Of a stretch of DNA of 64,000 bases, positions 2,967 to 13,570 are shown piece after piece. Below the pieces are notes generated by a model that did not search any database, was not told where the DNA came from, and saw only the letters and a program-made list of their open reading frames with translations. The position numbers were made by a program, and so were the translations under genes. The DNA comes from Streptomyces sp. ISL-98 (GTDB lineage: Bacteria; Actinomycetota; Actinomycetes; Streptomycetales; Streptomycetaceae). The DNA lies in contig NZ_JAGGPB010000006.1 in assembly GCF_018614055.1 (NCBI RefSeq), positions 124,001 to 188,000 of the forward strand, in the 5' to 3' direction. The number at the start of each line of letters is the position of its first letter. Within the stretch, counting starts at the first letter, position 1.

Positions 2967-4129
2967 CGGGCGACCTCGCGCACGACGTCGTCCACGCGTA
3001 CGTCGTCGAACGCGCCCGAGAGCACGGTGCGTTCGAGGTCGTCGGGACCGCTGCCGCCGCGCACATGCGCCACGAAGTCCTCCGCGATCTGCTGGTCGTC
3101 GCGGCCCCTGAGCCGCTGCGCGTACGAGGCGAGGGGGTCCTCGGCGGTTCGCTCGGGGTCGAAGACGAGGCTGATGGTGTGCGGGAAGCGTGCGCAGAGG
3201 CGTGCCATGGGTTCGGCCGGGCGTACGGGATCGGTCAGCGTCGCCTCGGTCCACGCGTCCTCGTGGCGCTCCAGTGCCGGGTCGGCGAGGAGGTCCTCCA
3301 GGCGGCCCCGGATCCGGGCGACCGTCCTGGGCACCGGGCAGTCGATGCGCTCAGCCGCGATCTCCCCGCCGGGCCCGAGGTCGACCAGCCACATGGTCTT
3401 GCGGTGATCGGCCTCCGAGAAGGAGTACGCGAGCGGGGAGCCCGAGTAGCGCACGCGCTCGGTGATGGCCTGGGAGCCGTGCAGGTGCCCGAGGGCCACG
3501 TAGTCGACGCCGTCGAAGACTCCGGCGGGGACGGCGGCCACGCCGCCGATCGTGATGTCGCGCTCGCTGTCGCTCGGTTTGCCGCCCGCGACGAAGGCGT
3601 GTGCGAGGACGACGGACCGGGTGCCTTCGGGGCGTGCGGCGAGGTCGGCGCGTACGCGCTGCATGGCCGCCCCGATGACGGCCTCGTGTCCTGCCTTCGC
3701 GGCCTTGAACTCCTCGCGGACCAGGGCCGGTTCGAGATACGGCAGTCCGTAGAAGGCGACTTCGCCGTGTGCGTCGGAGAGCACGACGGGCGTGGCGCAG
3801 GCGGCCGGGTCGGTACGGAGGTGGATTCCGGCCCGGTCGATGAGTCCGGCGCCGACGCCGAGCCTGCGGGCCGAGTCGTGATTTCCGGAGATCATGACGG
3901 TCGGTACGCCCTCGGCCGCGAGGCGGTGCAGGGCCAGGTCGAAGAGCTCGACGGCGGCGAGCGGCGGCACCGCCCGGTCGTACACGTCACCTGCCACCAG
4001 CACGGCGTCCACGTCGTGCTCGCGCACCGTCGCCACCAGGTGGTCGAGGAACGCGGCCTGGGCTTCGAGAAGGTTCACCCGGTGGAAAGACCGCCCGAGG
4101 TGCCAGTCGGAGGTGTGCAGAATTCTCAA
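2963..4129 (-). CDS. sbcD: SbcD exonuclease subunit, Mre11-like metallophosphoesterase
   Basis: Nuclease subunit of SbcCD. The calcineurin-like phosphoesterase motifs occur in order: HTSDWHLG near the N-terminus, VAGDVYDRA, MISGNHDS, LAHAFV and ALGHLHG. These supply the two-metal ligands. I chose the TTG start at 4129 because it gives the conserved start LRILHTSDWHLG and has GGAG 7 bases upstream. The longer ATG form from 4186 would add 19 poorly conserved residues (MAVLILRALEGKHAGRSRL). The predicted length of 388 aa is normal. It is upstream of sbcC, overlapping it by 4 bases. Confidence 0.96.
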   Translation of the reverse strand: MRILHTSDWHLGRSFHRVNLLEAQAAFLDHLVATVREHDVDAVLVAGDVYDRAVPPLAAVELFDLALHRLAAEGVPTVMISGNHDSARRLGVGAGLIDRAGIHLRTDPAACATPVVLSDAHGEVAFYGLPYLEPALVREEFKAAKAGHEAVIGAAMQRVRADLAARPEGTRSVVLAHAFVAGGKPSDSERDITIGGVAAVPAGVFDGVDYVALGHLHGSQAITERVRYSGSPLAYSFSEADHRKTMWLVDLGPGGEIAAERIDCPVPRTVARIRGRLEDLLADPALERHEDAWTEATLTDPVRPAEPMARLCARFPHTISLVFDPERTAEDPLASYAQRLRGRDDQQIAEDFVAHVRGGSGPDDLERTVLSGAFDDVRVDDVVREVAR

Positions 4130-4254
4130 GAGACGACTCCGACCTGCATGTTTCCCTTCCAGCGCCCTCAGAATCAGCACGGCCACGGCCGGGCCCGCCC
4201 TGGGACCCGGTTAGCGGCACCCAGTCACGCTAGCGCCCGCATCCACCACTGACC

Positions 4255-6831
4255 TCAGTTTTCCACCCTCGTCCGACGCCAGGTGACCGTCCGCCGTCCG
4301 CGCAGGGACGGCCGCCACCGCATCACGCGGGTCGCCAGTGCGGCGTATGCGATGCCCACGGCGAGTGAGGCCGCCAGCGCCAGCACCGCGAACTGGTCCT
4401 CCAGGCGGGGGAAGACCTGCCAGTGCGTCACATAGATGTAGAGCGAGCTGGCCGCGAGTACGCCCGCCACGCGGTTGACGGAGGCAAGACTCGGCAGCTT
4501 CGGCACCCACACCAGCAGCGCGAAACCGGCCATGATGACCGCCTCGCGGGCGGGCTGCCCGAAGAACCCCGGAACGGTGACCAGGGCCACAGCGGTCACC
4601 AGCAGCCGCTGCCGCACGGTGGTCGCCTTCGCGGCGGCCCAGCCCATCGCGAACAACCAGAAGATGCCGGCCACAAGCGGGACGTGCCCCCGGGCGTCGA
4701 GGCCGAAGACGTCGTAGCGCCCGATGAGCCCGAGAGCTGTCAGGACGGCCGGGAAGGCGAAGGGGAAGCGTCGCTCGGTGCGGTCCACGCGGGGTACGGC
4801 GAGCACGGCGGCCACAACGACCAGCATGTAGACGAGGGCCTCGATGAACCAGAAGCCGTCGTTCGGTCCGATGAGGCTGGTGAGCAGCAGGACCGTGGTG
4901 AGCCCGTAGTCGTCGGTGACGAGCGTGATCAGGGCGAGCCAGGCCATGCTCGGCACGGCGATCCGGGCGATGCTCCGGCCGAGGTTTCGCAGGCGTTCGC
5001 GGCGGTCGGCCGAAGTGAGGTGGAAGCGCGCGAAGTTGTAACCGGCGACTCCCAGCAGTACGTGGGCGCCGCCCTTGACCGTGAAGAGGTGGATGTGCGA
5101 GCCGACGATCAGCACGATGGCGACGGCGCGCAGGGCGACCCCGGTCTCCAGGGTGCGGGTGCGGCGGCGCCGGGTGTTCGGCCGGTCCTCGGCCTGCTGC
5201 CCCGGCGGCTTCCCGAGTTCGCGGATCGGGAGAGTGTGCCAGTCGTCGGGCAGCCGGCCGAGTGCCTCTTCGAGGCGCAGTGACATCTCGACGTACGACA
5301 GGGAGTCGCCGCCCAGGGCTACGAAGCTGCTGTCCGCGGTGACGTGGTCCCGGTCGAGGATCTGCGCGTACAGCCGGCACAGGTCGGCCTGTGCGGACGT
5401 TGCCGCGGCAGCCGGGGTTTCGGGGTCGGGCCGGGTCAGTTCGCGTACGGCCCGGTAGTCGGGCTTTCCGGTGGTGAGCCTGGGCAGTTCGGGGAGGACA
5501 CGGACGTGCACGGCGCGGGGCGGCAGGCCGCACTCGCCGGTGACCATGCGCCGTACGAGAGCGGCGTCGGTGGTGTCCGGATCGCCCGCGACGGCCACCA
5601 TCAGGGCGTCGTCGTCACCGGTGCAGCAGGAGGTGATGCCGCGCCTGCCGAGCATCGCCTCCACCTGCTGCGGGTCGATCCGCAGGCCGAGGATCTTGGC
5701 GAACCGGCTGCGCCGCCCGATCACTTCGTACAGCCCGTCGGGGGTCCGGCGGGCGATGTCCCCGGTGTGCAGCTCGTCGACGGTGCGGCCCAGCCGGAGG
5801 TCTTCCGGGCTCTCGGCATAGCCCAGCATGACGTTGGGTCCCGCGTACACCAGCTCCCCGGTGTCCTCTCCGGGCCAGTCCGGGTGCGGCTGGAGCCGGA
5901 AGGAACCGCCGGGGATGGCGATACCGGCGGCCTCGGGTCGGGTTGCCGCGAGATCCGGTGGCAGGTAGGCCATGCGGGCGGTCGCCTCGGTCTGGCCGTA
6001 CATGACGAACAGGTCCCAGCCGGCGGCCCGGCCGAGGGCCGCGTACCGGGCGACCCGGTCGGGCGCCAGCCTGCCGCCCGCCTGGGTGACGTAGCGCAGA
6101 TGGGGGAGCTCCATGGTGGCGAAGCCGACCCGGTCGAGCAGGTCGAAGGTGTACGGGACTCCGGCGATGGCCGAACCGTGGCCGGTCCTGAACAGCTCCC
6201 AGAAGCAGGAGTCGGCGACCGACAGGTCGGTGAGGATCACGCCGGCGCCGCGCAGGAGGTGGCTGTGGACGACGGAGAGTCCGTAGCAGTAGTGCAGGGG
6301 CAGGGTCGTCGCCGCGCGGTCGGTGTCCCTGATGCCGAGGTATTCGGCTATGGATTCGGCGTTGGCCTGCAGGTTTTCGTGCGAGAGCCGGACGAGTTTG
6401 GGTGAGCCCGTCGAGCCGGAGGTGCTCAGCAGCAGTGCGAGGTCCGGGTGCAGGGAGTGCGCGGAGACCGTGCGTCGTTCGTCGAGCACCCACGCGCCGC
6501 CGTCCGGGCGTGCCACGACGTCCGGGTCGTACTCGTCGATCAGCGAACGCACGGCTTCGGCGTGGTCCCCGGGCACCAGGAGGACGGGGTGTCCGGCGGC
6601 CAGCGCGGCGAGGTGGACCACGAGGGCGTCGGTCGTGTTGGCGCCGACGAGCAGGATGAGGCGCCGTTCCCGGCCGAGGCGGTGCGCGGTCTGCTCCACC
6701 CGTGCGGCGAGTTCGCGGTAGGTCACCGGGCCGTCGGCGGTGATGACCGCGGTGCGGTCGCCGTGAGCCGCGAGGCCTGCGGCGAAGGGGACGGTCTTGG
6801 CGCCTTTGAGCAGGCCGGGAGCGGGTATCAC
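4255..6831 (-). CDS. Adenylation domain - carrier protein - membrane acyltransferase fusion
   Basis: A single 858-aa protein with three modules. Residues 1-470 are an ANL adenylation domain: phosphate-binding STSGSTGSPK at 136-145, YGQTE at 278-282, TGD at 356-358, and catalytic-lysine motif TGKPDYR with K456. Residues 480-545 are a phosphopantetheine carrier domain with LGGDSL (Ser510). After a basic linker (RRRRTR), residues 565-845 are a multi-pass membrane domain resembling acyltransferase family 3: LRAVAIVLIVGSH at its start and SLYIYVTHW near its end. There is no condensation or thioesterase domain. I infer that it activates an amino or carboxylic acid, loads it on its own carrier and passes it to an acceptor at the membrane. 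An iron-box-like site lies just upstream of the GTG start, and the iron transporter is divergent. Substrate unknown. Confidence 0.85.
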   Translation of the reverse strand: MIPAPGLLKGAKTVPFAAGLAAHGDRTAVITADGPVTYRELAARVEQTAHRLGRERRLILLVGANTTDALVVHLAALAAGHPVLLVPGDHAEAVRSLIDEYDPDVVARPDGGAWVLDERRTVSAHSLHPDLALLLSTSGSTGSPKLVRLSHENLQANAESIAEYLGIRDTDRAATTLPLHYCYGLSVVHSHLLRGAGVILTDLSVADSCFWELFRTGHGSAIAGVPYTFDLLDRVGFATMELPHLRYVTQAGGRLAPDRVARYAALGRAAGWDLFVMYGQTEATARMAYLPPDLAATRPEAAGIAIPGGSFRLQPHPDWPGEDTGELVYAGPNVMLGYAESPEDLRLGRTVDELHTGDIARRTPDGLYEVIGRRSRFAKILGLRIDPQQVEAMLGRRGITSCCTGDDDALMVAVAGDPDTTDAALVRRMVTGECGLPPRAVHVRVLPELPRLTTGKPDYRAVRELTRPDPETPAAAATSAQADLCRLYAQILDRDHVTADSSFVALGGDSLSYVEMSLRLEEALGRLPDDWHTLPIRELGKPPGQQAEDRPNTRRRRTRTLETGVALRAVAIVLIVGSHIHLFTVKGGAHVLLGVAGYNFARFHLTSADRRERLRNLGRSIARIAVPSMAWLALITLVTDDYGLTTVLLLTSLIGPNDGFWFIEALVYMLVVVAAVLAVPRVDRTERRFPFAFPAVLTALGLIGRYDVFGLDARGHVPLVAGIFWLFAMGWAAAKATTVRQRLLVTAVALVTVPGFFGQPAREAVIMAGFALLVWVPKLPSLASVNRVAGVLAASSLYIYVTHWQVFPRLEDQFAVLALAASLAVGIAYAALATRVMRWRPSLRGRRTVTWRRTRVEN

Positions 6832-6840
6832 GACTGCATC

Positions 6841-6859
6841 TTAGGAAAGCCTTACCTTG
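6841..6859. promoter_or_regulatory. Iron-box-like operator of the adenylation/acyltransferase gene
   Basis: This 19-mer matches the actinobacterial IdeR/DmdR iron box (TTAGGTTAGGCTAACCTAA) at 13 of 19 positions by my count. It lies 9 bases before the GTG start at 6831 on the minus strand, overlapping where a promoter or initiation region should be. Iron repression of the gene is inferred; it is a weaker match than the site at 6980. Confidence 0.6.
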
Positions 6860-6979
6860 ATGGATAGTCACAGGGGCGTCACAGCCGACCCATTGAAGAT
6901 CCACAGAATCGTCACCAGTAGGGTCGGCTCCGCCGCCCGGTCCACGCTGCCGAAATGTTGTGTGCGTCACTCTTGACGT

Positions 6980-6998
6980 TTAGGTTAGCTTTACCTTA
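6980..6998. promoter_or_regulatory. Iron box (IdeR/DmdR operator) of the ferric-iron ABC operon
   Basis: TTAGGTTAGCTTTACCTTA matches the iron-box consensus at 15 of 19 positions, with the left half-site perfect. It lies about 100 bases before the start of the iron-binding lipoprotein gene. DmdR1/IdeR proteins are known to repress iron uptake genes at such sites when ferrous iron is plentiful, which fits the transporter downstream. Confidence 0.85.
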
Positions 6999-7101
6999 TT
7001 CATAGGGCGTTCAAAGGTTCCTCCGCGGCACCGCTACGCCGCTCGCTCCCTGACGACGCGACGCGCGGCGGCGGAAGTGAGCCATGCAGGAAGGCATCCA
7101 C

Positions 7102-8121
7102 ATGCGACGCCCCTTGTCCCGACGTCTGACCGCGCTCGTCTCGGCAGCCCTGCTCCTGCCCGCTCTCGCGAGCTGCGGCAACGACGAGGAGGACGCCGGG
7201 CTCGTCATCTACTCCGGCCGCAACGAGAACCTGGTCGAACCGCTGCTGGACGAGCTGGAGAAGGCTGTCGGCACCGACATCGCCGTCCGCTACGGCGACA
7301 GCGCCGAACTGGCCGCCCAGATCCTGGAAGAGGGCGACAAGACCAACGCCGGGCTGTTCTTCTCGCAGGACGCCGGAGCCCTCGGGGCCCTCTCCACGCA
7401 GGGCCGCCTGAAGAAGCTGCCCGAGTCGTCGCTGGACAAGGTCGACAAGGCGTTTCGCGGCAGCGAGGGCGACTGGGTGGGAACCTCCGGCCGCGTGCGC
7501 GTCCTCGCGTACAACCCAGGCAAGGTCACCAAGGTGCCGGACAGCGTGCACGAGCTGACCAAGCCGGAGTGGAAGGGCAAGGTCGGTTACGTCCCGACCA
7601 ACGCCTCCTTCCAGGCGTTCGTCACCGGTATGCGCGTCCTCGAGGGCGACGAGGCCACCCGCAGCTGGCTGAAGGGGCTCAAGGCCAACGACCCGAAGGT
7701 CTACGAGAACAACCTCAAGGTGCTGGAGGGCGTCGGCAAGGGCGAGGTCTCCCTCGGCCTGGTCAACCACTACTACTGGTACGAGCAGGTCGCCGAGAAG
7801 GGCGAGGACGAAGTCGGCGCGAAGATCCACTTCTTGCCGGGCGGCGACCCCGGTGCGCTCGTCAACGCGGCGGGAGTCGGCATCCTCAAGGGCAGCGACC
7901 AGGCCCCTGTGGCGCAGAAGGCCGTCGACTTCCTGCTCTCGAAGAAGGCACAGACCTACTTCGCCGACGACACCAAGGAGTACCCGCTGGCCGCCGGTGT
8001 CACCAGCAAGGTCAAGGACCTGCCGCCGATGGAGTCCCTCGACGCCCCCAAGATCGACCTCGGCAAGCTGGAATCGCTTCAGGAGACCCTGAAGATGCTG
8101 CAGGACGTCGGGATGGTCTGA
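7102..8121 (+). CDS. Ferric-iron ABC transporter substrate-binding lipoprotein (FbpA/FutA-like)
   Basis: Extracellular iron-binding lipoprotein of an FbpABC-type importer. The signal peptide ends in the lipobox LASC (Cys25). The mature protein starts a periplasmic-binding type II fold with LVIYSGRNENLVEPLL, typical of the iron(III) family. NHYYWYEQ, late in the protein, carries the adjacent tyrosines that commonly bind ferric iron. I prefer the ATG at 7102 (MRRPLSRRL) because AGGAAGG sits 7 bases upstream; an in-frame ATG at 7084 lies before that ribosome-binding site. First gene of a three-gene operon behind an iron box. Confidence 0.93.
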   Translation: MRRPLSRRLTALVSAALLLPALASCGNDEEDAGLVIYSGRNENLVEPLLDELEKAVGTDIAVRYGDSAELAAQILEEGDKTNAGLFFSQDAGALGALSTQGRLKKLPESSLDKVDKAFRGSEGDWVGTSGRVRVLAYNPGKVTKVPDSVHELTKPEWKGKVGYVPTNASFQAFVTGMRVLEGDEATRSWLKGLKANDPKVYENNLKVLEGVGKGEVSLGLVNHYYWYEQVAEKGEDEVGAKIHFLPGGDPGALVNAAGVGILKGSDQAPVAQKAVDFLLSKKAQTYFADDTKEYPLAAGVTSKVKDLPPMESLDAPKIDLGKLESLQETLKMLQDVGMV

Positions 8122-8127
8122 GCCGTC

Positions 8128-9768
8128 ATGCCTGCGAAGGAACCCGTCGTACGAACGGGTCCCGCCACCGGGCCGGCCGGTCCTCCGGGGCCGGCCGACC
8201 CTCCCGGCCCGGCCGGCCCTCCCGCGTCGGCCGGTCTGCCGCGTGCCGCGAAGGGCGCCGGGACCACCAGGCCGCCGGGCGCCCTCGTGGTCCCGGCCGC
8301 CGTCGCCGCGGCATTCGCGCTGCTGCCGCTCGGCTACCTCGCGGTCCGCTCGCTGGAGCGCGGCCCCGGATTCGCCTGGGAGGTCGTCGCCAACGAGCGC
8401 ACCGCGCTGCTGCTGGGCCGCAGCCTGGGACTCGCCGCCGTCGTCGTAACGGCCTGTCTGGTGCTGGGAGTTTCGCTGGCCTGGCTGACGGTACGGACCG
8501 CCCTTCCCGGCGCCAGGGCCTGGTCGGTCCTGGTGACCCTGCCGCTGGCCGTGCCCAGCTATGTCGCGGCCTTCGCCTGGCTGTCCGCGTTCCCCGAACT
8601 CGCGGGCTTCACAGGCGCCGCACTCGCGCTGACCCTGGTGAGCTTCCCGTACGTCTACCTGCCGGTGACCGCCGCACTGCGCGGCACCGACCCGGCGCAG
8701 GAGGAAGTGGCCCGCTCGCTCGGCCTCGGGCCGCTGCGGACGTTCCTGCGCGTCACACTCCCGCAGGTCCGCCCCGCGGCCGCCGGGGGTGCGGTGCTCG
8801 TCGCGCTGTACGTGTTCTCCGACTTCGGCGCGGTGTCCCTGATGCGCTACGACACCTTCACCCGGGGCATCTACACGTCCTACCGGGCCAGTTTCGACCG
8901 CACCCCGGCCGCCGCACTGAGCATCGTCCTGGTGGTGATGACCGTGGCCCTGGTCGCCGCAGAGGCACGTACGCGCGGCCGCGCCGGGCACGCCAGGACC
9001 GGCACCGGCACTGCGCGCCCCGCCGCCACGGCGCCGCTGGGGCTGTGGCGGGCACCGGCGCTGGCCTGGTGCGCGGCGGTCACGGCGGTCGCCGTTGTCA
9101 CTCCGCTGGCCACCCTCGGGTACTGGCTGGCCGTCGGCAACTCCGCTACGTGGGACCCCGCGCGGCTCCTCGACATCGCCGGTACGACGCTCGCAGTCGC
9201 CGCCGCGGGCGCCGCGCTCACCACTGCGCTCGCCCTGCCCGTCGGCGTGATCGCCGCCCGCCACCGGGGCCGGCTCGCGCATCTGCTGGAGCAGTCCGCC
9301 TACGCGGGCCACGCCCTGCCGGGCATCACCGTCGCCCTCGCGCTGGTCTTCTTCGCGGTCCGCTACGCCAACCCGCTGTACCAGGAACTGCCGTTGCTGG
9401 TCTGCGCGTACGCCGTGCTCTTCCTGCCCGTCGCGGTGGCGGCCACCCGCGCCGCGGTCCTCCAGGCCCCGCCCGTACTGGAGGACGTCGCCCGCTCCCT
9501 GGGCCGCACCCCGCTGCGGGTCCTGCGTGACGTCACCGTGCCACTCGCCGCGCCTGGCGTCGCGGCGGGGGCCGCTCTGACCTTCGTGGTGTGCATGAAG
9601 GAACTGCCCGCCACTCTCCTGCTGCGCCCCACCGGCATGGACACCCTGGCCACCCGTCTGTGGACCGAGACCGGCACCGGATCGTTCGCGGCCGCCGCCC
9701 CCTATGCCGCGACCCTGATCCTGCTGGCCGCCGTCCCCTCCTACCTCCTCGGGAGGCACCGCACATGA
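8128..9768 (+). CDS. Ferric-iron ABC transporter permease (FbpB-like, duplicated)
   Basis: A 546-aa inner-membrane permease made of two fused transmembrane halves, each with an EAA loop that docks the ATPase (EEVARSLGLGPLRTFLRVTLP and EDVARSLGRTPLRVLRDVTVP). About twelve membrane segments are expected. The first 45 residues are an unusual Pro/Gly/Ala tract (GPAGPPGPADPPGPAGPP) encoded by a GC-rich DNA repeat, not usual in this family. It starts 6 bases after the binding-protein gene, and its stop overlaps the ATPase start (ATGA). Confidence 0.93.
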   Translation: MPAKEPVVRTGPATGPAGPPGPADPPGPAGPPASAGLPRAAKGAGTTRPPGALVVPAAVAAAFALLPLGYLAVRSLERGPGFAWEVVANERTALLLGRSLGLAAVVVTACLVLGVSLAWLTVRTALPGARAWSVLVTLPLAVPSYVAAFAWLSAFPELAGFTGAALALTLVSFPYVYLPVTAALRGTDPAQEEVARSLGLGPLRTFLRVTLPQVRPAAAGGAVLVALYVFSDFGAVSLMRYDTFTRGIYTSYRASFDRTPAAALSIVLVVMTVALVAAEARTRGRAGHARTGTGTARPAATAPLGLWRAPALAWCAAVTAVAVVTPLATLGYWLAVGNSATWDPARLLDIAGTTLAVAAAGAALTTALALPVGVIAARHRGRLAHLLEQSAYAGHALPGITVALALVFFAVRYANPLYQELPLLVCAYAVLFLPVAVAATRAAVLQAPPVLEDVARSLGRTPLRVLRDVTVPLAAPGVAAGAALTFVVCMKELPATLLLRPTGMDTLATRLWTETGTGSFAAAAPYAATLILLAAVPSYLLGRHRT

Positions 9769-10811
9769 CCGATCTGCAGATCGCCGGAGTGTCCAAGGCG
9801 TACGGCCGAGGCCGCCCGGACGAGGCACCCGTACTCGACGGGCTCGATCTCACCGTCCCCAGCGGTGCGTTCGCGGCCGTGCTGGGACCGTCCGGCTGCG
9901 GAAAGACCACGCTGCTGCGCATCATCGCGGGCTTCCTGCGCGCCGACGCGGGCACCGTCACGGTCGGCGGACGCACCCTCGCCGCGCCCGGTACGCATCT
10001 GCCGCCGGAGAGCCGCCGCGTCGGGATCGTCCCGCAAGAGGGCGCGCTCTTCCCGCACTTGAGCGTGGCCCGCAATACCGCCTTCGGCCTGTCGGGGCTC
10101 GACCGCGCCGCACGCCGCAGGCGTACCGAGGAGATGCTGGAACTGGTCGGCCTCGGCGGCTACGGAGACCGCATGCCGCACGAGCTGTCCGGCGGCCAGC
10201 AGCAGCGCATCGCACTCGCCCGGGCCCTGGCACCGGAACCCGCGGTGGTCCTGCTCGACGAGCCGTTCAACGCCCTCGACAGCGCCCTGCGCGCCGGGGT
10301 ACGGGCGGATGTCCGCGCCGCCCTGCGCGCCACCGGCGCCACCGCCCTGCTGGTCACCCACGACCAGCAGGAGGCCCTCTCGACGGCCGACCTCGTCGCA
10401 GTCGTACGGGACGGCAAAGTCGCCCAGTGCGACACTCCCCAGGAGGTCTACCGGCACCCCGCCGACCCGTGGGTGGCCCGCTTCGTCGGCGACGTCGTAC
10501 TTCTGCCCGGCAGCGCCGACGACGGCACGGCCACCACAGCGCTGGGCCGGCTACCCCTCGGCCCTGCGGCCCGGGACGCCGGTGACGGAACCGTTCTACT
10601 GCGGCCCGAGCAGCTGCAACTCACCGATGCGGCAACGGCAGTTCAGGGCACGGTGACCGAGGTGAGCTTCTACGGTCACGACGCCATGGTCACTGTCGAC
10701 GTCGACGGTCTTGCGACGCCGGTGGAAATCCGGGTCGCCGGATTCACCGGCGTACGGCCCGGCCAGCGAACCGGCATCCGCGTGACGGGCGAGGCGACCC
10801 TGCATTCCTGA
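9765..10811 (+). CDS. Ferric-iron ABC transporter ATPase (FbpC-like)
   Basis: Cytoplasmic ATPase that powers the iron importer. Motifs in order: Walker A GPSGCGKTTL, Q-loop VGIVPQEGALFPHL, signature LSGGQQQR, Walker B VVLLDEPFNALDS and the switch THDQQEA. The C-terminal 100 residues look like a TOBE domain, as in FbpC and PotA proteins. The ATG overlaps the permease stop by 4 bases and has GGGAGG upstream. Length 348 aa is typical. It ends the iron operon and converges on the UPF0029 gene. Confidence 0.94.
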   Translation: MTDLQIAGVSKAYGRGRPDEAPVLDGLDLTVPSGAFAAVLGPSGCGKTTLLRIIAGFLRADAGTVTVGGRTLAAPGTHLPPESRRVGIVPQEGALFPHLSVARNTAFGLSGLDRAARRRRTEEMLELVGLGGYGDRMPHELSGGQQQRIALARALAPEPAVVLLDEPFNALDSALRAGVRADVRAALRATGATALLVTHDQQEALSTADLVAVVRDGKVAQCDTPQEVYRHPADPWVARFVGDVVLLPGSADDGTATTALGRLPLGPAARDAGDGTVLLRPEQLQLTDAATAVQGTVTEVSFYGHDAMVTVDVDGLATPVEIRVAGFTGVRPGQRTGIRVTGEATLHS

Positions 10812-10851
10812 GCCGGCATTCCTGAGTGGCGGCCCAGCGTTCCGGAGCGCC

Positions 10852-11478
10852 TCAGGCGTCGCCGTACGCCTCTCCGCCCACCTCGAACCCCGCCGTGCCC
10901 GCCGTCGCGTCGGCGAGCCAGGCCCGGAAGGGTTCGACGTCCGCCTCCGGCAGACCGACCTCGATCGTGACCGCCTCGGCGTACCGCACATCGCGCACCG
11001 CCCGCCCGGTCGCCCGCAGGTCGTTCTCCAGCTTTCCGGCCCGCTGGTGGTCGACGGTGACCGTGGCGAGCCGGAAGCGCTGCCTCGTGATCGTGCCGAT
11101 CTCGTCCAGGGCTTCGCCGACCACGCCGCCGTACGCCCTGATCAGACCGCCCGCGCCGAGCTTCACACCGCCGTAGTAGCGGGTGACGACGGCGACGGTG
11201 TACCGCACCTCGCGGCGCATCAGCATCTGGAGCATCGGTACACCGGCCGTGCCGCCCGGCTCGCCGTCGTCACTCGCCTTCTGTACGGAGGCGTCCGCGC
11301 CGATGACGTACGCGAAGCAGTTGTGCGAGGCCGTCGGGTGTTCCTTGCGGATGCGCGCGATGAAGTCCTGCGCCTCACGTTCGGTGGCGGCGGGCGCGAG
11401 CGCGCAGAGGAACCGCGACCTGTTGATCTCGGCTTCGTGCACGCCCGCGTGGGCGACGGTCCGGTACTGCTCCTGCAT
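10852..11478 (-). CDS. UPF0029/IMPACT (YigZ) family protein
   Basis: 208-aa member of the YigZ/IMPACT family, identified by the strongly conserved RYYGGVKLGAGGLIRAYGG and by DDGEPGGTAGVPML. Eukaryotic IMPACT interferes with Gcn2 activation; the bacterial role is unclear. I take the ATG at 11478 (MQEQYRTVAHAG) as start; the open frame extends to 11580 but that portion is made of a large inverted repeat and is unlikely to be coding. Convergent with the iron ABC operon. Confidence 0.9.
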   Translation of the reverse strand: MQEQYRTVAHAGVHEAEINRSRFLCALAPAATEREAQDFIARIRKEHPTASHNCFAYVIGADASVQKASDDGEPGGTAGVPMLQMLMRREVRYTVAVVTRYYGGVKLGAGGLIRAYGGVVGEALDEIGTITRQRFRLATVTVDHQRAGKLENDLRATGRAVRDVRYAEAVTIEVGLPEADVEPFRAWLADATAGTAGFEVGGEAYGDA

Positions 11479-11589: not shown

Positions 11590-12141
11590 CTACTTCTTGA
11601 GCAGCAGGGCGGCGGCCGCGAGCACCAGGCCGAGCGCCACGGCGGCGACTCCGTACGCGAGACGGTGGGTGCGCAGGCCGGGCAGGAAGCGGTCGACGGC
11701 GTACCGGCCGGGGCCGGTGAGCGCGAGGGCGGCCGATGCGGCCGTGAGGAGCAGTACGTACTCGACGCCCTTGGGGGCGAAGAAACCGCCGCTCCAGTGC
11801 ATGGCGAGGGCGTTGACCATGGTGCCGACGATGGCCGCGCCCGCCAGCGGGGTGAGCAGGCCAATGACGAGCCCGAGGCCGCCGAGAGTCTCGGTGAGGC
11901 CTGCGACGGCGGCCATCACCTCGCCCGCCGGGTAGCCGCTCGCGGTGAAGAACATCCCTGTGCCTTCGATACCGCCGCCGCCGAACCAGCCGAAGAGCTT
12001 CTGCGAACCGTGTGCGGCCATGGTCAGGCCGAGCGCGATACGGAGTACGAGCAGACCGGCGTCATAGCCGTGAAGTGAGGGGGTGGGGCGGTCGGTTCCG
12101 GCGGTTACGGGGGCGCCGAGGGTACTGGTGGGGGGAGTCAT
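11590..12141 (-). CDS. DoxX family membrane protein
   Basis: 183-aa membrane protein with four expected membrane helices. The family signature is LLVLRIALGLTMAAHGSQKLFGWFGG, followed by GMFFTASGYP and LGGLGLVIGLLTPLAGAAIVGTM. DoxX-like proteins are linked to oxidative or thiol stress and quinone chemistry, with no settled activity. I chose the ATG at 12141 because AGGAGAGA lies about 8 bases upstream. An ATG at 12180 is possible. A palindrome next to the predicted transcription start suggests repression by a MarR-type protein, but no such regulator gene is adjacent. Confidence 0.9.
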   Translation of the reverse strand: MTPPTSTLGAPVTAGTDRPTPSLHGYDAGLLVLRIALGLTMAAHGSQKLFGWFGGGGIEGTGMFFTASGYPAGEVMAAVAGLTETLGGLGLVIGLLTPLAGAAIVGTMVNALAMHWSGGFFAPKGVEYVLLLTAASAALALTGPGRYAVDRFLPGLRTHRLAYGVAAVALGLVLAAAALLLKK

Positions 12142-12181
12142 CTGGTGGGCTCTCTCCTGTGTCGGATGCTTGTTCAGCATT

Positions 12182-12232
12182 ACTTGAAACTTCAAGTCAC
12201 CAGACGATACACAGCCGTACAACCTTGAACAA
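12182..12232 (-). promoter_or_regulatory. Promoter and palindromic operator of the DoxX gene
   Basis: On the minus strand, TTGTTC (12232-12227) is followed after 17 bases by TATCGT (12209-12204), a plausible -35/-10 pair. Next comes ACTTGAA-GT-TTCAAGT (12197-12182), perfect 7-bp arms around 2 bases, exactly where transcription should start. This geometry fits a repressor site of the MarR class. Identity of the repressor is unknown. Confidence 0.6.
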
Positions 12233-12239
12233 CTGCGCC

Positions 12240-12622
12240 TCGATGGGCGCACAGACGGAGGCCGAGGCCGCAGGCATCGATCTCACCGTCACCTATGCGC
12301 AGAACGATGCGTCCCAGCAGGCCAACCCGTACCCGGGGATCAAGGTCGTCGCCACGCAGCCCGCCGGCTTCGACCGCGCGGCCAAGGCGCTCGGCGGCAA
12401 GGCGGGCAAGTCCGTGGCCGTGGTCGGCTTCGACGGAACTCCGACGGCCTCAAGGGGGTTGAGACGGGCACGCTCTACGCTTCCGTGGCCCAGCAGCCCA
12501 AGGAGCTCGGCAGGACAGCCGTCCGGAACGCGGTGAAGGCCGCGCAGGGCAAGAAGGTCGAGAGCATGGTGAAGGTGCCGGTCAAGGTCGTGACCAAGAA
12601 GAATGTCTCCGGCTTCTCCTGA
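12240..12622 (+). pseudogene. rbsB: Degenerate ribose ABC transporter binding protein
   Basis: Remnant of a sugar-binding protein. Recognisable pieces occur in the order of a ribose-binding protein: GAQTEAEAAGIDLTVTYAQN, then GIKVVATQPAGFDRA, then ALGGKAGKSVAVVGFDGTP, then in another frame GTLYASVAQQPKELG and a C-terminus VKVVTKKNVSGFS. The signal peptide and first part are missing, at least two internal segments are deleted, and a frameshift follows FDGT near 12440. It cannot make a working protein. It directly precedes rbsK, so a ribose uptake operon has decayed here. Confidence 0.85.
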
Positions 12623-12664: not shown

Positions 12665-13570
12665 ATGCACAGCTACGACCTGCTGGTCGTCGGGTCGGCC
12701 AATGCCGACCTCGTGATCGGCGTCGAGCGACGCCCCGCGCCCGGCGAGACCGTGCTCGGCTCCGACCTGACCGTCCACCCCGGCGGCAAAGGAGCCAACC
12801 AGGCGGCCGCCGCCGCGCGTCTTGGCGCCAGTACGGCCCTGCTCGCCCGGGTCGGCGACGACGCCCACGGGCAGCTGCTCCTGGAGGCGCAGCGCGCGGC
12901 CGGGGTGGACACGGGCGGCGTACTCGTCGGCGGGGCGCCGACCGGGGTCGCGCTGATCACCGTGGACCCGTCGGGCGACAACAGCATCGTGGTCTCCCCC
13001 GGCGCCAATGCCCGGCTGACCCCCGACGACATCCGTGCGGCCGGGAGCCTGCTCGCGCTGGCCCGGGTCGTCTCGGCGCAGCTGGAGGTCCCCCTGGACA
13101 CGGTCGCGGAGGTGGTACGCACGCTGCCGGCCGGCACCCGCTTCGTACTGAACCCCTCGCCGCCGGCGCCGCTGCCGTCGGGAGTGCTCGCGGCCTGCGA
13201 TCCGTTGGTCCTGAACGAGCACGAGGCGCGGTTCATCCTCGGGGATTCGGCCGGGGAGGCTCCGGAGGACTGGGCGCGGGGACTGCTCGCCCTCGGTCCG
13301 CGATCGGTGGTGGTGACGCTGGGTGCGGCGGGCGCGCTGGTCGCCGACGGCCGTACGGACGCGCTCGTGCGGGTACCGAGCCCGAAGGTCGAAGCCGTGG
13401 ACACGACCGGGGCCGGTGACGCGTTCACCGCCGCCTTGGCCTGGCGGCTCGGCCTGGGCGAGGACCTCGCGGCGGCGGCCGCGTTCGCCGTGCGGGTGGG
13501 AGCAGCCGCCGTCACCAGGGCGGGTGCGCAGGAGTCCTTCCCCACGGCGGAGGAGGTCTCCGCCCCGTGA
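12665..13570 (+). CDS. rbsK: Ribokinase
   Basis: PfkB-family kinase that phosphorylates ribose to ribose-5-phosphate. The N-terminal signature VVGSANADLVIGVERRPAPG, the substrate-loop HPGGKGANQAAAAARLG and the C-terminal DTTGAGDAFTAALAWRLG with its catalytic Asp are all intact. Length 301 aa is usual. AGGAAACAGGG precedes the ATG. The stop overlaps the GTG of the broken rbsD (GTGA). It is the only intact member of the ribose locus; permease and ATPase genes are absent. It may serve other sugars or internal ribose from nucleosides. Confidence 0.93.
   Translation: MHSYDLLVVGSANADLVIGVERRPAPGETVLGSDLTVHPGGKGANQAAAAARLGASTALLARVGDDAHGQLLLEAQRAAGVDTGGVLVGGAPTGVALITVDPSGDNSIVVSPGANARLTPDDIRAAGSLLALARVVSAQLEVPLDTVAEVVRTLPAGTRFVLNPSPPAPLPSGVLAACDPLVLNEHEARFILGDSAGEAPEDWARGLLALGPRSVVVTLGAAGALVADGRTDALVRVPSPKVEAVDTTGAGDAFTAALAWRLGLGEDLAAAAAFAVRVGAAAVTRAGAQESFPTAEEVSAP

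Follow-up and report, generated by a model that had tools for sequence, protein, structure and literature searches.

An iron-boxed adenylation-carrier-AT3 protein beside FbpABC-type ferric importers: a candidate carrier-fed transmembrane acyltransferase

Introduction

Why should a protein that looks able to activate an acid, load it onto a carrier and hand it over in a membrane be encoded back to back with a ferric-iron importer? The question is raised by a gene at positions 4255 to 6831 of a 64-kb stretch of DNA from Streptomyces sp. ISL-98 (contig NZ_JAGGPB010000006.1, positions 124,001 to 188,000), called the window here. Its product joins an adenylation domain (A), a carrier domain (T) and a membrane acyltransferase domain of the AT3 type, and is referred to as the A-T-AT3 protein. 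A preliminary description had likened the protein to a fused Dlt machine under iron control. In most descriptions, FbpABC-type importers take up bare ferric ion, whose extracellular solubilisation is unclear. To my knowledge, the known FbpABC/HitABC/SfuABC importers have no dedicated acyltransferase beside them. In this study, an iron role of the A-T-AT3 protein was found to be strongly supported. The reading that I prefer, tentatively and at slightly less than an even chance, is that the protein would be an iron-starvation, carrier-fed transmembrane acyltransferase serving FbpABC.

Three domains in one chain

The coordinates of the preliminary description were correct, and the strand is to be specified as minus; an open reading frame check found the plus frame over 4255-6831 interrupted by stops. 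The gene and its domains are as follows.

4255..6831, minus strand: A-T-AT3 gene, 858 amino acids, GTG start at 6831 (open reading frame, Pfam and 80 named homologues)
5443..6831, minus strand: adenylation (ANL) domain, about residues 1-463, with STSGSTGSPK, YGxTEATAR, TGD, the A10 Lys456, Cys182 and Arg286
5254..5394, minus strand: carrier (PP-binding) domain, about residues 480-526, with Ser510 in GGDSL (codon 5302-5304)
4258..5199, minus strand: AT3/TmAT membrane acyltransferase domain, residues 545-858, with Arg568-X10-His579 and Ser796-xxx-Tyr800

Each domain scored above its Pfam curated cut-off: AMP-binding at residues 19-337 (E 4e-40), PP-binding at 482-524 (E 1e-6) and Acyl_transf_3 (PF01757) at 566-816 (E 5e-9, 36.0 bits against a cut-off of 31). 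These positions are counted without the start codon, and one residue must be added for the true numbering. The proposed domain order is therefore correct. As judged from the conserved catalytic residues of the three domains, the logic of activation, loading and transfer also appears sound. In the host genome, the 48 other matches to the protein all end by query residue 535, and so cover the A-T part alone (best E 4e-23).

Does the protein belong to a known system? Dlt (DltA-DltC-DltB) also consists of a ligase, a carrier and a carrier-fed membrane acyltransferase. In contrast, the A-T-AT3 protein is one polypeptide, has AT3 instead of MBOAT, has a Cys at the amino-acid Asp position, and is preceded by an iron box. 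According to the available parts of PMC9558356 and PMC12423673, DltB is an MBOAT protein and AT3/TmAT is a different fold. Pfam matched no condensation-type, MBOAT or PlsC domain in the A-T-AT3 protein. Since the membrane domain is AT3/TmAT, with TmAT structural matches and no MBOAT match, membership in Dlt was rejected. Thus, the preliminary description holds for the domain order, the three-step logic, the iron-type control site and the pairing with an importer, but not for a literal fused Dlt machine.

The epsilon-poly-lysine synthetase has an A domain, a carrier and a membrane part in one chain and polymerises amino acids; PosA is reportedly another A-T-membrane synthetase with the same chain order that polymerises amino acids. 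Unlike these, the A-T-AT3 protein lacks a condensation-type Pfam match and its membrane part is AT3. An amino-acid polymer synthetase was ruled out by this lack together with Cys182. Aas resembles the protein in combining a ligase and an acyltransferase, with the acyl group carried on a carrier arm. However, Aas has a PlsC-type acyltransferase and a separate acyl carrier protein (ACP), whereas here PlsC is absent by Pfam and the NCBIfam Aas models cover the A part alone.

Iron boxes and a ferric importer

What surrounds the gene? The following features lie upstream of it and on its divergent side.

6841..6859, no strand: iron box (DmdR/IdeR type), 16/19, 10-28 bases ahead of the A-T-AT3 start
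6980..6998, no strand: second iron box, on the transporter side, 17/19
7084..8121, plus strand: FbpA/HitA-type ferric-iron-binding lipoprotein (Pfam SBP_bac_6; lipobox LASC and the twin Tyr in NHYYW by eye)
8128..9768, plus strand: FbpB-type permease with two BPD_transp_1 stretches in a single protein
9765..10811, plus strand: FbpC-type ATPase (ABC_tran and TOBE_2), whose probable ATG overlaps the permease stop

Scores were counted against a 19-base consensus which I take to be of the IdeR/DmdR1 type. The two boxes are the sole sites of at least 14/19 in the 64 kb, and 100 dinucleotide shuffles gave zero sites at three or fewer mismatches. Thus, the iron-box-like site that had been noticed at the start of the gene is one of two, one for each divergent gene. 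The claimed divergence from a ferric-iron ABC operon was also borne out: a binding protein, a fused permease and an ATPase are encoded on the plus strand at 7084-10811. In the PDB, the binding protein is closest to ferric-iron-binding proteins (E 5e-75), and its sequence places the operon in the predicted FbpABC/HitABC/SfuABC class of ferric importers. NCBIfam models of 2-aminoethylphosphonate transport (PhnS2/PhnT2) matched below their cut-offs in all cases; this assignment was rejected, since ferric-ion binders predominate among the PDB relatives of the binding protein. An Rfam scan of the whole window gave no match, and a promoter and terminator scan over 3900-11000 predicted no element. 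Farther downstream, a ribokinase-like gene (12665-13570) is closely preceded by a short plus-strand frame (12012-12536) that by eye is similar to a portion of a sugar-binding protein and looks like a remnant.

Which other host genes carry the box? With a slightly looser pattern, the whole genome gave 35 matches at about 15 places, two of them in the window, against 3 matches for the reversed pattern. Ten of the other 13 boxed places, in six regions, were retrieved, and ten nearby genes were scanned for domains. Those of iron type encode a Peripla_BP_2 binding protein, HtaA, a haem oxygenase and a second FbpA-type protein. The box was also found at desferrioxamine-like genes (a pyridoxal decarboxylase and a lysine/ornithine monooxygenase) and at a siderophore-interacting protein gene with a divergent penicillin amidase gene. 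Most of the places examined adjoin iron genes of known kinds; two boxed genes, for an SBP_bac_5 binding protein and for a ribosomal S4-type protein, are not plainly iron-related. The second FbpA-type binding protein (G000:C66:31189-32235; L164 3187-4236) is 51% identical and has an iron box directly upstream. In the amidase region (L167 361-3300), the iron box lies between the penicillin-amidase-type gene and the divergent siderophore-interacting protein gene, a layout that recalls the desG region of S. coelicolor as given in the available part of PMC12161575.

Acylated siderophores exist, and the desferrioxamine-like genes of the host carry the same iron box. Does the enzyme then acylate desferrioxamine or another siderophore encoded elsewhere in the genome, either as it is exported or afterwards? 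I consider this improbable. The partner is an FbpA-type ferric-ion binder rather than a Peripla_BP_2 siderophore binder, the gene occurs in just 23 of 199 genomes of the genus, and relatives are also present in rhizobia, which make different siderophores.

Probable iron control and importer linkage in Actinobacteria

Is the iron box conserved in homologues? The best 80 of 173 homologues were taken as a set of named actinobacterial loci, from Streptomyces, Micromonospora, Actinomadura, Thermomonospora, Catellatospora, Kineococcus, Nocardioides, Rhodococcus, Arthrobacter and others. A box was defined by at least 14/19 positions, either near the gene (-80 to +60 of the called start) or within 300 bases upstream; the controls for the near window were genes starting more than 600 bases from the homologue. 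A near box was found in 73/80 homologues and in 2/758 control genes; the homologous sequences are related, so that such counts are not independent draws, and the boxed loci span 11 named genera. In the 300-base window, 75/80 homologues and 14/766 other genes have a box. Leaving out genes that begin no more than 600 bases from the homologue, and so may share its site, lowers the latter count to 4/754. Among the Streptomyces loci, 23/25 have a near box, while in 18/25 the best-scoring box of the 300-base window lies more than 100 bases upstream. Seven loci lack a near box. Two of them, Streptomyces L042 (13/19) and L068, have a site farther upstream; in four (L103, L105, L106 and L077), a boxed FbpA-type gene lies upstream on the same strand; at L091 there is no box at the gene. 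Of 13 further loci in a phylum-wide sample, one of them interrupted by two stops, 9 have a box close to the gene or its operon.

Importer genes of the FbpABC type adjoin 43/80 named loci, 42 by the binding-protein cluster and L096 by tblastn, its binding protein being divergent. The pairing with a ferric ABC transporter that had been described for the window is thus recurrent. The importer is divergent in 31 loci, downstream in the same direction in 6, and upstream in the same direction in 5, plus L096. At L079, of the downstream layout, the contig end leaves room for no more than a fragment of a weakly similar binding protein, and at L077, of the upstream layout, the ATPase lies on the opposite side. 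Since the same genes occur in differing arrangements, selection is argued for over the inheritance of one arrangement. In the phylum-wide sample, importer genes were found in 5/13 loci, two of which have 39-45% identity; at one of these two, L134, they are split around the A-T-AT3 gene. Because the importer is adjacent in just 43/80, the iron box is the more constant companion. At the level of sequence, both a membrane acyltransferase match and iron-related neighbourhoods were found, so that the preliminary description was not refuted.

Co-occurrence was assessed in 199 genomes of the genus Streptomyces. The A-T-AT3 protein is present in 23, the binding protein in 29 and both in 22 (Fisher p = 3e-22, uncorrected for phylogeny). 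In the lone genome where the protein lacks a matching binding protein, G197 (L139), query residues 290-719 alone are covered, in a 527-residue frame. This fragment looks like decay after transporter loss. In a phylum sample, 18/396 genomes match at E 1e-60, at least 3 of them over the A domain only.

If the enzyme served general lipid or polymer chemistry, its boxes might simply accompany a neighbour, and the iron link would be incidental. The 37/80 named loci without an adjacent importer and the 4/13 wider loci without a near box fit this view. However, boxes are present at most transporter-free loci, including those of Micromonospora and most of those of Arthrobacter, and the motif of another regulator recurs in rhizobia. 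An incidental link is thus most improbable.

No dedicated pathway was found to recur beside the gene across genera in the 80 loci, where ten neighbour proteins, mostly of importer-free loci, were scanned. The scanned neighbours are a luciferase-like monooxygenase and an FMN reductase (both of Micromonosporaceae), an argininosuccinate lyase, a P-type ATPase, a prolyl oligopeptidase, a glycosyltransferase and others, with no common theme. The families that recur in the 80 loci are generic, such as a short-chain-dehydrogenase-like family in 11/80 loci. Thus, the acid and the acceptor should be common metabolites or envelope components. By cluster, the luciferase-like monooxygenase (L047 3843-5602) lies near the gene in 13/15 Micromonosporaceae loci, with the FMN reductase in most. 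This pair possibly serves flavin-driven iron release.

The acid and the carrier

Which acid is activated? Conservation was examined in an alignment of the 80 named homologues and the window protein (81 rows). The carrier Ser510, the phosphopantetheine serine, is Ser in 81/81. Lys456 (A10) is invariant in 81/81, and the remaining core motifs of the A domain (TSGSTGSPK, TGD) are invariant or almost so. Cys182, which is Cys in 81/81, aligns with the LgrA Asp of the alpha-amine position, presumably the position of GrsA Asp235; in a wider alignment the proteobacterial rows hold Ser or Cys there. The Asp expected for amino-acid activation is thus replaced. Arg286, four residues past the glutamate of YGxTE, is Arg in 81/81 and also in 13/13 rows of the wider alignment, which includes proteobacterial and stand-alone relatives. 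I take its position to be one that lines the acyl pocket in luciferase-type enzymes, and from this I would guess that the far end of the acid is polar or charged. In the wider alignment, Ser510, Arg568 and His579 are present by inspection in all 7 proteobacterial rows.

Stand-alone relatives of the A domain (L136, L137 and L138) are 38-47% identical. Two of them adjoin genes resembling FabG, LuxE/LuxC and, in L137, an aminotransferase, and by eye these resemble sugar acyl-modification clusters.

The membrane domain

The full-length model had a mean pLDDT of 82.5 and a pTM of 0.50, and its domain placement is unreliable. All 50 rows listed by Foldseek for it were adenylating enzymes or nonribosomal peptide synthetases; thus the AT3 part was modelled separately, from 48 sequences (pLDDT 90.7, pTM 0.85). 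A PDB sequence search with this part gave no match up to E 1. The top Foldseek match of the model was human HGSNAT, at only E 0.14. In VIA-align, HGSNAT aligned over 256 residues (Z 14.4, rmsd, root mean square deviation, 4.7) and GWT1 over 248 residues (Z 9.8, rmsd 4.9). The top ten rows were six HGSNAT entries, 8jl4 and 8jkv, titled 'membrane proteins', and two of GWT1; the next row had Z 5.6. In the available part of PMC12423673, 8jkv is HGSNAT, and AT3, HGSNAT and GWT1 are grouped in one TmAT superfamily. The model thus points to a 10-TM (transmembrane) TmAT fold for the domain. Its likeness to AT3/TmAT proteins (OafB, OatA, HGSNAT and GWT1) comprises the fold over about 256 residues, the R-X10-H pair, SxxxY and PF01757.

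The R-X10-H pair, Arg568 and His579, is invariant in 81/81, and Ser796 and Tyr800 in the SxxxY of transmembrane helix (TMH) 9 are each kept in at least 97% of the 81 rows. By the motif list in the available part of PMC12423673, the Arg of TMH1, the Gly of TMH2 and the SxxxY of TMH9 are retained. As to the RxxR of TMH3, R610xxR613 fits by letters (74/81 and 81/81), while R623-I-x-V-P looks nearer the canonical place. Has the domain lost acyl transfer, so that it exports or anchors the A-T product? The replaced Asp of DxxR and Phe of FxxxxG, the ambiguous RxxR and the weak Pfam scores of relatives would agree with such a loss. However, R-X10-H and SxxxY are retained, the fold match spans the domain, and the DxxR Asp is dispensable in the AT3 protein OacB, as stated in the available part of PMC12423673. 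Loss of transfer is highly improbable.

In the available part of PMC9558356, acyl-CoA, not ACP, is concluded to be the AT3 donor, and the AT3 proteins described there use acyl-CoA; here an A domain and a carrier are fused in front. The AT3 fusions named in the consulted parts of the AT3 literature (SGNH, alanine racemase and eukaryotic domains) are unlike this one. A covalently attached carrier would make the A-T-AT3 family an exception to the acyl-CoA rule.

Relatives on plasmids and in Proteobacteria

Does the family extend beyond Actinobacteria? In plasmid records, 86 match at E 1e-60 or better, 74 of them over at least 80% of the query, from Rhizobium (44), Leisingera (17), Rhodococcus (7), Sinorhizobium (4) and others; proteobacterial identity is about 34-38% among the matches listed. 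The annotation 'iron ABC transporter' is given to the neighbours on plasmids of Rhodococcus fascians, R. opacus and Mycolicibacterium chubuense. In Pararhizobium sp. A13, the gene is divergent from an ATPase, an 'Fe(3+) ABC transporter substrate-binding protein' and a permease. Seven plasmid records label the protein simply 'AMP-binding protein', which makes the family easy to miss. The plasmid clusters of R. fascians D188 and M. chubuense NBB4 (L144 5070-8647 and L145 1653-5117) lie near genes for ArsR, a P-type ATPase, signal peptidase II and a cadmium resistance transporter.

DmdR/IdeR are DtxR-type repressors, a family different from that of RirA, which is of the Rrf2 type. In PMC8822346, the RirA motif is given as TGA-N9-TCA; 'AMP-binding' and 'acyltransferase' are not mentioned there. 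The motif, unrelated to the DmdR/IdeR box of actinobacteria, was found at -160 to +20 in 12/13 rhizobial-type loci (12 of Hyphomicrobiales and one labelled Roseateles). Since the two repressor families differ, the enzyme seems to have either retained or gained iron control while its regulator changed.

Such a distribution bears on envelope remodelling, in which the carrier-fed enzyme would acylate a phospholipid, a lipid-linked sugar or peptidoglycan under iron starvation and alter surface charge or iron binding near FbpA, with no free ligand being made. The AT3 literature deals chiefly with cell-surface glycan modification (PMC9833829 and PMC9558356, in their available parts), the stand-alone A-domain relatives lie in sugar-modification-like clusters by eye, and no dedicated acceptor genes recur beside the gene. 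However, the recurrent partner is a transporter and no envelope gene, and since the family occurs in Actinomycetota and in diderm Alphaproteobacteria, teichoic acid or O-antigen is improbable as a shared acceptor. Envelope remodelling is less likely than not.

Discussion

How could a carrier-fed acyltransferase serve FbpABC? The boxes suggest that release from an iron-dependent DmdR/IdeR-type repressor would allow the gene and the divergent FbpABC operon to be co-expressed. As the conserved motifs indicate, the A domain would then activate a small non-alpha-amino carboxylic acid and load its own phosphopantetheine arm. The fold and the R-X10-H pair point to a third step, in which the carrier, at the cytosolic mouth of the AT3 domain, would insert its acyl-loaded pantetheine arm into the pore that in other AT3 proteins takes up acyl-CoA; an acceptor at the outer face would then receive the acyl group. 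In the fourth and weakest step, the product would most plausibly be an Fe(III) ligand, either small or carried on a lipid, whose synthesis and release would be a single event and which would supply FbpA with iron. The first three steps jointly are quite likely. The fourth, an Fe(III) ligand supplying FbpA, is open to real doubt, and yet it is my first choice for the product, ahead of envelope acylation. A common small metabolite or lipid is favoured as the acceptor, because no pathway recurs and the family occurs in one- and two-membrane bacteria.

Several observations weigh against this reading. The importer is absent beside 37/80 named loci (at least L084 owing to a contig end), including 14/15 loci of Micromonospora and Micromonosporaceae KJ-029, and is present in only 5/13 phylum-wide loci, 4/13 of which have no near box. 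Of the 29 genus genomes in which the binding protein was matched, seven have no acyltransferase; in three of these seven, the match is at only about 50% identity. In Proteobacteria, an Fe3+ importer was found in 1/16 annotated loci (four with 9-kb and twelve with 3-kb flanks), and the exact RirA motif in 1/6 Rhodobacterales loci; 7/73 control genes have the motif, some sharing a site. In the membrane domain, the Asp of the TMH1 DxxR and the Phe of the TMH2 FxxxxG are replaced. Among nine full-length homologues, only three pass the Pfam AT3 cut-off and six are below it or without a hit, two having no match at all; PP-binding is below the cut-off or absent in three, all proteobacterial, with GGDSL visible by eye. 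The desferrioxamine-like genes of the host could make another ligand redundant.

Has the architecture been described? No paper on an A-carrier-AT3 architecture or on its iron role was found in open-access full text, as judged from titles, the openings of abstracts and term counts; for one set of 26 matches, none of the 25 listed contains PF01757. No such gene is mentioned in the available part of the paper on the DmdR1 regulon (PMC12161575), while possession of the gene by S. coelicolor is not established. As far as the sequences tell, these would be known domains and a known logic in a combination that I have not seen described. The weak Pfam AT3 and PP-binding scores of the relatives may be the reason why it went unnoticed.

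The A-T-AT3 protein is probably an unrecognised iron-scavenging tool. A conserved, iron-boxed enzyme that travels with FbpABC in two phyla is a concrete candidate for supplying the iron of these importers. Its single chain would also be a handy system for studying how an acyl arm enters the pore of an AT3 enzyme. In its boldest form, which I regard as unlikely, the proposal is a one-enzyme metallophore route, in which a common acid and a common acceptor would be coupled during membrane crossing and a small iron ligand exported in one step for FbpABC. Such an enzyme would be, as far as I know, the first transmembrane acyltransferase fed by its own carrier domain. If true, this route would account for the iron supply of a 'naked iron' transporter.

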